This document shows, piece after piece, positions 35,874 through 38,320 of a stretch of 64,000 nt of DNA. The notes under the pieces are model-generated. The model saw only the letters and a program-made list of their open reading frames with translations, was not told where the DNA came from and searched no databases. The stretch is from positions 1,426,001 through 1,490,000 of the forward strand of contig NC_015578.1 of assembly GCF_000214375.1 (NCBI RefSeq). The letters run 5' to 3'. Each line of letters starts with the position of its first letter. The first letter of the stretch is position 1. The stretch comes from Treponema primitia ZAS-2. Lineage in GTDB: Bacteria > Spirochaetota > Spirochaetia > Treponematales > Breznakiellaceae. Both the position numbers and the translations under genes were made by a program.

Positions 35874-35915
35874 GTTATTTCTAAAGTAACTCTAAAGAGT
35901 TACTTTAGAAATAAC
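35874..35915. other. Perfect 42-nt hairpin abutting the tRNA 5' end
   Basis: The 20-base arm GTTATTTCTAAAGTAACTCT (35874-35893) is followed by AA and by its exact reverse complement (35896-35915). The next base, 35916, is position 1 of the tRNA. The arms are AT-rich while the flanks are not. It may affect 5' processing by RNase P, act as an attenuator, or be an inserted palindrome. Confidence 0.85.
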
Positions 35916-35988
35916 GGCGGCATAGCTCAGTTGGTAGAGCATACGGCTCATATCCGTAGTGTCATAGGTTCAATCCCTATTGCCGCTA
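35916..35988 (+). tRNA. tRNA-Met (CAU), elongator type likely
   Basis: The acceptor stem GGCGGCA pairs with TGCCGCT (one G-T) and the D arm is AGCTCAGTTGGTAGAGCA. The anticodon stem TACGG/CCGTA encloses CTCATAT with anticodon CAT. The T arm is ATAGG-TTCAATC-CCTAT and the discriminator is A. The stem ends rule out initiator tRNA, which needs an unpaired 1:72. A lysidine-modified tRNA-Ile2 also has CAU and cannot be fully excluded. CCA is not encoded. Its 3' end is repeated at 36143, 36312 and 38120 and, degenerately, at 51.2 kb. Confidence 0.92.
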
Positions 35989-36411
35989 AAGAAAAAAAGT
36001 AAATATGACCGAATAGATTGCGGCAATAGGGATTGAAGGGTTCAGTCCGCCGACCGAACGGGAGGAAAAGGGGCCATGGATGGCCCCGACAGGACTGAAC
36101 CCCGGGTCGGAAGGCCGAAGCAGGATGCTGAGGCCTGGAGACCAATCCCTATTGCCGCTAGAAAAGATTAAATACGACCGAACATATTCCGGCAATAGGG
36201 ATTGAAGGGTTTAGTCCGCCGACCGAATGGGAGGAGAAGGGGCCATGGATGGCCCCGTCAGGGTTAAACCCCGGGTCGGAAGGCCGAAGCAGGATGCTGA
36301 GGCCTGGAGACCAATCCCTATTGCCGCTAGAAAAGATTAAATACGACCGAATATATTCCAGCAATAGGGATTGAAGGGTTTAACCCGCCGACCGAACGGG
36401 AGGAAAAGGGG
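35971..36411. repeat. Tandem repeat array built on the tRNA 3' end
   Basis: The 17-mer CAATCCCTATTGCCGCT, the tRNA 3' end, recurs at 36143 and 36312. Between copies its reverse complement (CGGCAATAGGGATTG) occurs at 36021, 36190 and, slightly changed, 36360. Units are 172 and 169 bp; the third is cut off at about 36411 by the integrase fragment. Each full unit folds into an 11-bp stem (36038-36048 with 36092-36102; 36207-36217 with 36261-36271) enclosing GGGGCCA-TGGA-TGGCCCC, then a hairpin AGGCC-GA-AGCA-GGA-TGCT-GA-GGCCT (36112-36136). The minus-strand open frames here are by-products of the repeats. Confidence 0.85.
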
Positions 36412-36898
36412 CCAGGCCATAGGCCGTGAATACTGCTATGCAAATCACGGTTTTATTGAACGCCATATTAAGCCCCGCGTACAGGGATTACATCTGCGGG
36501 AAGTGACAGCCCAGGATTTGGATCGGTTACAGCTTCAGATTAAAAAAGAAACCAAACTCAAGGCAAAGACCGTCAATTCAATCCTGGCCGCTGTCTGTAT
36601 ACCAATTCGCGAAGCCTTCAGGGTTGGAAGAGTATCCCATAACCCGGCGCAAAAATTTCGCGGCCTTGGGCGCGATGACGATCCCCGGGGGATCCTTTCA
36701 AGCGCGGAACTGAAAAAGCTCTTTGCAGAACCCTGGGAGACGGAAGCCCACAGGTTAGCTGTGGCGCTCTCGCACGCCACCGGGATGCGCCTGGGAGAAA
36801 TACTTGCCATAGGGCTGGAGGATATAACCCTGGACTTCGAGGAGAAGCCGGTGTTATGGGTCCGGAAAAGCTGGTCTACAGTATCGGGCCATAAGTGA
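36371..36898 (+). pseudogene. Truncated tyrosine recombinase (integrase)
   Basis: The 175-aa frame starts with an ATG inside the third repeat unit; its first 15 residues are repeat-derived. From GREYCYANHGFIERHIKPRV it matches the core-binding domain of phage integrases (QLQIKKETKLKAKTVNSILAAVCIPIREAFRVGRV), then enters the catalytic domain at LSHATGMRLGEILAIGLEDI, with the first catalytic arginine present. It stops at GHK* before the HxxR and tyrosine motifs, so it cannot catalyse recombination. It is the remains of the enzyme that probably used the CAU tRNA as its site. Confidence 0.85.
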
Positions 36899-36943
36899 AG
36901 ATGTCCGGGGGTAGCGATGCAGCGGATTTCATAGGGAGGAGAT

Positions 36944-37141
36944 ATGGATCAACCAGCGAAGGAATACTACACTTACCAGGAAGTCGCCGAAAAATTCGGC
37001 GTGTCAGACCGTACCGTGTGGCGGTGGGTGGTGACAGGGACGATAAAGGCCCGGCGTTTTTCCCGGCAAATTGTCCGGATCCCGGTAGCGGAAATCGACG
37101 GTCCCCCGATTGAAACAAAACTGAGTAGGGAAGAACAATGA
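36944..37141 (+). CDS. Small helix-turn-helix protein (excisionase/HTH_17-like)
   Basis: The 65-aa protein contains a MerR-like HTH: YYTYQEVAEKFGVSDRTVWRWVVTGTIKARRFSRQIVRIPVAEI (quoted as a region, residues 8-52), typical of HTH_17 excisionase-type proteins that bind as small winged helices. GGGAGG at 36932-36937 precedes the ATG. Its stop overlaps the next ATG (ATGA). It could be the excisionase of the lost integrase, but its coupling to the PIN gene makes a role as an antitoxin or repressor equally likely. Confidence 0.75.
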   Translation: MDQPAKEYYTYQEVAEKFGVSDRTVWRWVVTGTIKARRFSRQIVRIPVAEIDGPPIETKLSREEQ

Positions 37142-37614
37142 GCATACCCCGCGTTTATTTGGAAACGACGATGTTTAGCTTTTATTACGAAAAACGGGAA
37201 GATCCGCATTACCAGGAATTGAAGGCCCAGACCCGGCAAGTCTTTGACATGATAAAGGCGGGGAAGTTTGAGCCGTATACCTCTACTTTTGCTACTGATG
37301 AGATGGAAAACGAAAAAGACCCTGAGAAACTGGAAAATATGCGACAGCTTATCCCTGAATTTGGCATTCGTTTTCTTGACATAACGCCGGAGGTGGATCG
37401 GCTTGCGACTCTTTACATCAAAGAGGAAGCGGTTACGGCTTTAAGTGAAACGGATGCAGCCCATATTGCTATTACGGCAGTCAATGGTTTAGACTTTATT
37501 GTAAGCCTTAATTTTGGGCATATTGCCAGGGCCTGGACCATTGAGAGGGTCCGCCGGGTCAATATCCGGAGAATTATAAAGGCATTGGCATATACAAACC
37601 AGCGGAGGTATTAG
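37138..37614 (+). CDS. PIN-domain protein (putative RNase toxin)
   Basis: The 158-aa protein has the PIN acidic set: E9 in VYLETTMFSFYY, a central TSTFATDEMENE, and D in SETDAAHIAITAV with a following SLNFGHIAR in place of the usual TxD/N. PIN proteins cleave RNA, mostly as toxins. It lies between an HTH gene (4-bp overlap) and a small acidic gene (4 bp after its stop), a compact three-gene module. Whether the first aspartate position, here glutamate, allows full activity is uncertain. Confidence 0.78.
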   Translation: MSIPRVYLETTMFSFYYEKREDPHYQELKAQTRQVFDMIKAGKFEPYTSTFATDEMENEKDPEKLENMRQLIPEFGIRFLDITPEVDRLATLYIKEEAVTALSETDAAHIAITAVNGLDFIVSLNFGHIARAWTIERVRRVNIRRIIKALAYTNQRRY

Positions 37615-37618
37615 AATT

Positions 37619-37867
37619 ATGAAAACGATAGACGAATACATGAGCGATCCCCGGATACTCAACGATCCCTACATGGAGGATGGGCCAATAAAGGAAATCC
37701 ATGCCGCCCGGCTCAAGCTTCAGGATGAAACGGCGGGAATGACGGTTCAGGAAAAATGCGACTACCTCAACAATAAAGCACGGGAAACACTTGCCCGGCA
37801 TGGGATTACCCCCCAGTTTGTTAATCTTGCTGGGCAGGGGAGAATCCAGCCCAAGGTTACGGTATAG
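37619..37867 (+). CDS. Small partner protein of the PIN gene, unknown family
   Basis: The 82-aa soluble protein (MKTIDEYMSDPRILNDPYMEDGPIKEIHAARLKL...) starts 4 bases after the PIN stop. Its N-terminal half is acidic and helical, and ARETLARHGI and the basic end may contact nucleic acid or partner. By position it is a candidate antitoxin or accessory of the PIN protein. A damaged piece of the same gene reappears at about 38839-38882. Confidence 0.6.
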   Translation: MKTIDEYMSDPRILNDPYMEDGPIKEIHAARLKLQDETAGMTVQEKCDYLNNKARETLARHGITPQFVNLAGQGRIQPKVTV

Positions 37868-38110
37868 CCGCTAACAAGAAATTAGCCGCTTTCCTTATCG
37901 GCAAGTAACCGTATGTTGAAACCGCCCTTGCCTAGGGGCTGTTTTTACAACGCTGCCGTGTGACCAAATATGTGACACAAATCTCAAAAAAAATAGCGTT
38001 TTAACTGATATTATCAGATACAATATGAATTTACCTATTGCACTAATTCTTTACCCTATAGTAAAATATGATATGTGAAGGGTTTACGGGGTATTTACTG
38101 ATACTATATT
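37868..38110. other. AT-rich gap at the end of the small island
   Basis: No gene is supported here. A weak hairpin GCCCTT...AGGGGC followed by TGTTTTTA at about 37927-37950 could terminate the PIN operon. The stretch TGACCAAATATGTGACACAAATC looks like the 3' flank often seen after integrase genes. Confidence 0.35.
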
Positions 38111-38251
38111 GGATAGGTTCAATCCCTATTGCCGCTAGAAAAGATTAAATACGACCGAACATATTCCGGCAATAGGGATTGAAGGGTTTAACCCGCCTCT
38201 TTAGATGCCGCGACCAAGTGGGAGCGGCTTCGAACGGGAGGAAAAGGGGAC
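38111..38251. repeat. Downstream copy of the tRNA-derived repeat (attR-like)
   Basis: From ATAGGTTCAATCCC the copy contains the last part of the tRNA T arm and acceptor (38113-38136), the same spacer as in the array (AGAAAAGATTAAATACGACC), the inverted 3' end at 38168, and GGGTTTAACCCGCC. A 31-bp insertion then interrupts it before CGAACGGGAGGAAAAGGGG resumes. With the array at 36.3 kb it brackets the integrase remnant and the PIN module. Confidence 0.8.
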
Positions 38252-38320
38252 CTGGGGCTAAATTGACGAATTTCTCCAGGCGGTGTATACTATTATTCAG
38301 CACTATGCATGGAGGTAGTT

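Follow-up and report, generated by a model that had tools for sequence, protein, structure and literature searches.

Behind a tRNA-Met gene of Treponema primitia ZAS-2, the end of the gene recurs in tandem units together with its inverted copy, and the question is what kind of element this array represents and what keeps its stems paired. The window, i. e. the whole stretch of 64,000 nucleotides that was analysed, lies in a genome (G000) that consists of a single contig of 4,059,867 bp. A sequence-only reading of the locus had described units of 172 and 169 bp, each with the tRNA tail and an inverted copy of it. This description is accurate: the tail recurs at 36143 and 36312, at spacings of 172 and 169, and the inverted copies are present in both units. 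What had been missed is a third, broken copy, a relic further downstream and the dispersal of the units over many tRNA genes. The features of the locus, with IRL and IRR denoting the inverted and the direct copy of the tail, are as follows:

35916..35988, + strand: tRNA-Met(CAT), the target gene (ARAGORN; Rfam tRNA 67.7 bits), with the insertion point at T55/C56 in the T-loop
35971..35988, + strand: tRNA tail C56-N73, the sequence of the direct repeat
35989..36019, + strand: spacer of unit 1
36020..36037, + strand: IRL of unit 1, an exact inverted copy of the tRNA tail
36038..36142, + strand: core of unit 1 (covariance-model match of 134.8 bits; folds; covariation)
36038-36048/36092-36102, + strand: stem P1 of unit 1
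36050-36065, + strand: P1a of unit 1
36070-36087, + strand: P2 of unit 1
about 36104-36142, + strand: P3 of unit 1
36143..36160, + strand: IRR of unit 1, a direct copy of the tRNA tail starting at C56
36161..36188, + strand: spacer of unit 2
36189..36206, + strand: IRL of unit 2
36207..36311, + strand: core of unit 2 (covariance-model match of 129.4 bits)
36312..36329, + strand: IRR of unit 2
36330..36414, + strand: unit 3, broken off in the P2 apex, with spacer, IRL (36359-36375) and the left half of the core (weak covariance-model match, E 0.097)
36420..36898, + strand: 5'-truncated tyrosine-integrase fragment of the neighbouring island, adjoining unit 3
38113..38252, + strand: relic, a displaced 3' piece of tRNA-Met followed by a spacer, IRL (38167-38184) and a broken core

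The second unit is 92% identical to the first over the 169-bp unit. As had been noticed before, the pairing of P1 is perfect in the first copy (36038-36048 with 36092-36102) and survives in the second, where GGGTTTAGTCC (36207-36217) faces GGGTTAAACCC (36261-36271) with one double change from C-G to T-A, one G-T and one T-G; the hairpin with facing GA/GA steps at 36112-36136 is unchanged between the copies. The fold of the first copy lies far outside the range of shuffled sequences (z -9.2 as RNA and -8.4 as DNA), and none of 200 shuffles folded as well.

The surroundings of the array show two further features. A perfect 20-bp inverted repeat with a 2-nt loop (35874-35915) abuts the 5' end of the tRNA-Met gene. 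Downstream, the region from 36420 to 38100 is a remnant island that ends at the displaced tRNA-Met piece with its own broken unit. Besides the truncated integrase, which is no more than a possible helper of the units, the island encodes a small HTH_17 protein and contains uncharacterised genes.

A family of units behind tRNA and tmRNA genes

BLAST with the window unit detected dispersed relatives in G000 itself, and 17 of 40 genomes gave matches. With a covariance model built from 25 units, matches were obtained in 83 of 120 genomes of the taxonomic family and in 122 of 197 genomes of the order, most of the sampled genomes being MAGs; in a phylum-wide sample, seven genomes outside the order had matches, all of them within its class. 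G000 alone holds 22 copies. A pattern scan of GTDB genomes returned at least 120 stretches, nearly all from Spirochaetota among the matches listed. Units were also found in MAGs labelled Omnitrophota, Betaproteobacteria and Deltaproteobacteria (L333, L365 and L367; 45-59 bits), with tmRNA-type arms in L367; this reflects either mis-binning or transfer.

The units are about 140-200 bp long and free of genes, and their order is constant: the tRNA tail is followed by a short spacer, often with a terminator, by the IRL, which is an inverted copy of the T-arm half of the local tRNA, by a conserved core of ~104 nt that folds as a three-way junction, and by the IRR, which starts at C56. The same anatomy was seen at the genes for tRNA-Met, Glu, Thr, Arg, Gln, Pro, Asn, Ser, Leu, Trp, Val and others. 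In a second type of core, P1a is extended and P2 has the form AAACCGCC..GGCGGTTT; it occurs at L031:7659-8405 (tRNA-Gln-CTG), L237 and L242, in settings that include a four-unit array and tRNA-Trp. In Breznakiella homolactica (L163:5928-7574, the same record as L404), a complete unit precedes a second one that is broken in the P2 apex; a small lipoprotein-like gene comes next, and a copy of the first unit follows 1.5 kb on. Gene cargo in the P2 apex was considered for this locus and for position 36414 of the window and was rejected, since these are isolated interruptions and no cargo recurs.

The position of the units is highly specific. Among 164 model matches, 149 lie directly behind a tRNA gene on the same strand, representing about 31 tRNA kinds, and the other 15 are found at contig ends, at tRNA 3' fragments, at tmRNA or at unexplained places. 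In a second set of 117 matches, 94 are located behind tRNA or tmRNA genes (ten of them tmRNA), 11 behind tail fragments and five at contig edges, and seven are unexplained. The two sets contain overlapping loci and related genomes, and thus these counts do not represent independent events. The earlier suggestion that copies might sit at tRNA-Met ends has to be widened: confinement to tRNA-Met is rejected by the variety of tRNA kinds and by the tmRNA genes that carry units. The 3' junction is fixed at T55/C56 in the T-loop of tRNA and tmRNA genes and the units are sense-oriented; because the tail is present twice, the tRNA remains intact.

The inverted arm corresponds to the tRNA gene that the unit occupies. 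For 162 first units, the complementarity of the IRL to the local tRNA is 98-100% at positions 54-62, falls to 93% at position 63, 88% at 64 and 65% at 65, and reaches background by about position 70. At the variable positions 57, 59 and 60 the IRL matches the local tRNA in 99% of the cases, where other tRNAs would match in 59, 38 and 67%, respectively; at the variable position 63, other tRNAs would match in 36%. Within one genus, the tRNA-Trp alleles CCTGCT, CCTACT and TCCTTCT are each accompanied by a matching IRL. The IRL is thus an 11-nt inverted copy of the T-arm half-site that forms a closing stem, P0, with the tail, and the match profile along the tRNA indicates that P0 is an arm of about 11 bp. 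P1 constitutes a second arm of about 11 bp.

Selection on a folded strand

The sequence-only reading had attributed the paired changes to selection for a folded RNA or for a folded single-stranded DNA site, and had regarded simple att duplication as inadequate. Our data strongly support selection on a folded single strand. Double-sided changes were present in 25 of 31 predicted pairs of a MAFFT alignment and in 36 of 40 pairs among 107 distinct units aligned with the model, in which 90.2% of the cells pair. The covariation score was 0.592, as compared to 0.156 +/- 0.006 for shuffled alignments and at most 0.113 for slid partners, with the reservation that this alignment leans towards the model. 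Covariation across many copies is thus above background, and duplication of att ends does not account for it.

As to the nature of the folded strand, the RNA option is disfavoured and the form is probably DNA. G-T accounts for 1.5% and A-C for 0.8% of the stem cells in P1-P3, whereas G-T reaches 8.9% in tRNAs of the same contigs. The rarity of G-T makes folded single-stranded DNA likelier than RNA, and the low frequency of G-T and A-C alike is expected if pairing is maintained at the level of DNA. On the tRNA-sense strand, the ratio of G-T to A-C is 77:39, and unpaired stem positions are GA, AG, AA or GG in 525 cases as compared to 36 cases of TC, CT, TT or CC. This excess of purine-purine mismatches and of G-T points to the tRNA-sense strand as the folded one. 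The P3 helix has a constant length, but the position of its tandem GA step shifts along it. Pairing at the DNA level can also result from the correction of palindromes by template switching, which would involve no folded intermediate.

Evidence for mobility

It is very likely that the units are a mobile element. A search of 40 genomes of one genus allowed us to read 30 orthologous tRNA-Trp/secE loci, of which six are filled with units of three core types, about three are relics (L217, L219, L222) and about 21 are empty. The occurrence of these three states at orthologous loci indicates that the element moves. The empty sites lack the inverted arm, and the idea that this arm pre-existed in the target is therefore rejected. 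The genome G193 has two tRNA-Ser loci with the same tail (L133) whose units have common flanks, and in another genome (G024) near-identical cores are present at tRNA-Ser(TGA) and tRNA-Ser(GCT), so that the units appear to travel. From its start at C56, the direct repeat extends past the tRNA into the native flank at 48 of 82 loci, by 39-62 exact nucleotides in fresh cases; the left end of the units is variable.

The search for a helper covered a few protein families. Reverse transcriptase domains were absent from G000 with its 22 copies and from G048, G020, G028, G031, G033, G036, G039 and G142, and no Y1_Tnp (RAYT) gene was present in the unit-bearing genomes G048, G020, G011, G031 and G039. 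Both enzymes are thus missing from unit-rich genomes, and helpers of these two types were rejected. Tyrosine recombinases were present in all nine genomes tested and are possible as the enzyme, although integrase genes lie near only about eight unit loci. For an IntI-like helper the association is loose: genes of the IntI clade occur in 23 of 35 unit-bearing genomes versus nine of 23 unit-free relatives, and in the unit-rich genome G020 the IntI matches are limited to two weak ones, at the level of the Xer pair. A separate observation concerns the integrase genes of G000 that adjoin tRNA-Cys, Leu and Tyr (L055, L056, L058): a common flanking motif like CCTTACGTTGTAAGGAATTAG, distinct from the units, sits just 3' of these tRNA genes, and a similar motif follows a right half-unit at L036.

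Comparison with known systems

The closest resemblance is to the attC sites of integrons, which had already been named as a parallel. Like attC, the units are imperfect palindromes that fold on one strand with the structure kept more than the sequence, they have two arm stems and form head-to-tail arrays in one orientation, and the boundary lies inside the outer arm so that each unit starts with half of the next site. The anatomy therefore fits, but the units are not attC sites: in place of the RYYYAAC/GTTRRRY triplets at R''/R' with cleavage at G^TT, the arms read GGANTYGAA and (G)G-CRANTCC, and the junction copy is usually without GTT. Moreover, the target of the units is not attI but the T-arm of tRNA or tmRNA genes, their outer arm matches each local tRNA, their fold is a three-way junction with the extra hairpin P3, they contain no cassette genes and the flank is duplicated. 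Membership in attC was rejected because AAC/GTT is missing from the arms and because T. primitia was reported to be without an integron in a published Treponema survey (PMC3607928). An integron-like locus is nevertheless seen in G000 (L060:7220-11990; G000:C1:2031219-2035989). It encodes an IntI/XerA-like recombinase of 395 aa for which the match to the IntI model is split, suggesting that the IntI insertion is missing. Cassette-like genes follow, with attC-like hairpins between them: CATAAC...GTTATATG at 2033213-2033391, ATAAC...GTTATG at 2034649-2034819 and a partly lost third one at 2035794.

Islands, ICEs and phage satellites with tRNA-specific tyrosine integrases also insert into the 3' part of tRNA genes and duplicate the tail, and the units, like them, are bounded on both sides by directly repeated copies of the tRNA 3' end; however, the units are short, carry no integrase gene inside, possess an inverted half-site arm and serve about 31 tRNA kinds with one core family. 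The REP/BIME sequences of the RAYT (Y1) system are likewise small, dispersed and hairpin-shaped, with a foot that base-pairs close to the site of cleavage, but several unit-bearing genomes lack Y1, no REP tetranucleotide was seen and the specificity for tRNA genes is strict. Miniature elements such as MITEs are similarly short and gene-free with flanks that resemble target duplications, whereas fixed terminal inverted repeats belonging to the element itself are missing from the units, whose inverted arms consist of target sequence. Retroelements (group II introns, retrons, TPRT) differ in the reverse transcriptase, which is absent from G000 and several unit-rich genomes. A search of Rfam with the unit gave no match at the gathering threshold and only chance-level matches at E values up to 5, which separates the units from known structured RNA families. 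An exact-pattern scan of IMG/VR viral contigs yielded zero unit matches and BLAST of plasmids and phages with the window copy gave no match; carriage by phages or plasmids was rejected on this basis, although diverged units could escape an exact pattern and a single query copy. A search of the open-access literature for repeats linked to tRNA genes in Treponema found nothing that matches; the family might have been described before under a different name.

Mechanism and alternative explanations

Taken as a whole, we read the locus, with a probability of about 0.4, as an array of copies of a mobile DNA element that is non-autonomous and site-specific, resembles integron cassettes and targets the T-arm. 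The active form would be the self-folded tRNA-sense DNA strand, in which P0 and P1 may serve the recombinase as a pair of arms, comparable to the R and L boxes of attC. Strand exchange at the T-loop would be carried out by a tyrosine recombinase acting in trans, units would accrete head to tail in the manner of cassettes, and the tRNA would be restored by the tail of each arriving unit, which often includes a terminator. Synthesis templated by the hairpin might then copy the IRL from the new target or correct it to this target. For the part of this scheme that concerns integron-like strand exchange by a tyrosine recombinase we see somewhat less than even odds: conservative strand exchange would not be expected to produce the long target-like duplication or a variable left end, and a target-primed or template-switch step would agree with the duplicated flank and the local origin of the IRL. 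It is tempting to speculate, but tentative, that the units represent a new class of element in which one half-site of the folded strand is rewritten to complement the occupied T-arm, either at each insertion or continually afterwards; such an element would move through most tRNA genes of the genomes of the phylum and leave the genes undamaged. The family is apparently undescribed and of a new kind, a judgement based on the comparison with each known family and not on a proven mechanism, and the enzymology could prove to be that of a known recombinase.

Among the alternatives, a double-stranded, MITE-like satellite of ordinary tRNA-targeting tyrosine integrases survives best, although we consider it unlikely. 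Here, a small circle would provide an attP composed of tail, flank, IRL and core that recombines with the T-arm as attB, and the folded core would be an accessory binding platform. A fixed crossover and a restored tail are typical of tRNA integrases, and both are seen in the units with the junction in the T-loop; the common flanks at the two tRNA-Ser loci of G193 look as if carried over, and an integrase fragment adjoins the array in the window. Yet the units have neither genes nor a consistent integrase neighbour, the integrases next to tRNA-Cys, Leu and Tyr in G000 have a different flanking motif, and the complementarity of the IRL to the local tRNA as well as the duplicated flank would be left unexplained.

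Target-primed or replication-based insertion is rather improbable. A nick in the T-loop would serve as the primer for synthesis with an element as template, the newly made strand would fold back and copy the tail to give the IRL, and staggered repair would duplicate tail and flank. This would fit the fixed 3' junction with a variable left end, the target-duplication-like repeats of varying length and an IRL of local origin whose match declines outward, but G000 and eight other genomes lack reverse transcriptase domains and the stems do not have the G-U tolerance expected for an RNA intermediate.

It is very unlikely that the units give rise to a structured RNA derived from the 3' trailer of the tRNA, such as a switch with two alternative partners for the IRL, the tail and its copy. 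The strong fold (z -9.2), the mutually exclusive pairings and the sense orientation downstream of tRNAs agree with such a function; the paucity of G-T in the stems, the intrinsic terminators that often separate the tRNA from the unit, the patchy presence at orthologous loci and the missing Rfam match speak against it. Finally, passive debris of duplicated att ends or functionless recombination scars is practically untenable: broken copies and relics do exist (36330-36414 and 38113-38252 in the window; L217, L219, L222), but the covariation (double-sided changes in 36 of 40 pairs, 107 distinct units) contradicts it and the same core occurs in a wide set of tRNAs and genera.

If the reading as a mobile element is true, the spirochaetes harbour a widespread and apparently undescribed mobile DNA, present in 122 of the 197 order genomes sampled, with a target, the T-arm, that is the single motif common to all tRNAs. 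This would make it possible to test how integrating elements change their tRNA targets, whether recombination of folded single strands occurs beyond integrons, and in what way tRNA genes cope with repeated insertions. The element may also be of use as a tool for site-specific insertion at tRNA-safe targets.
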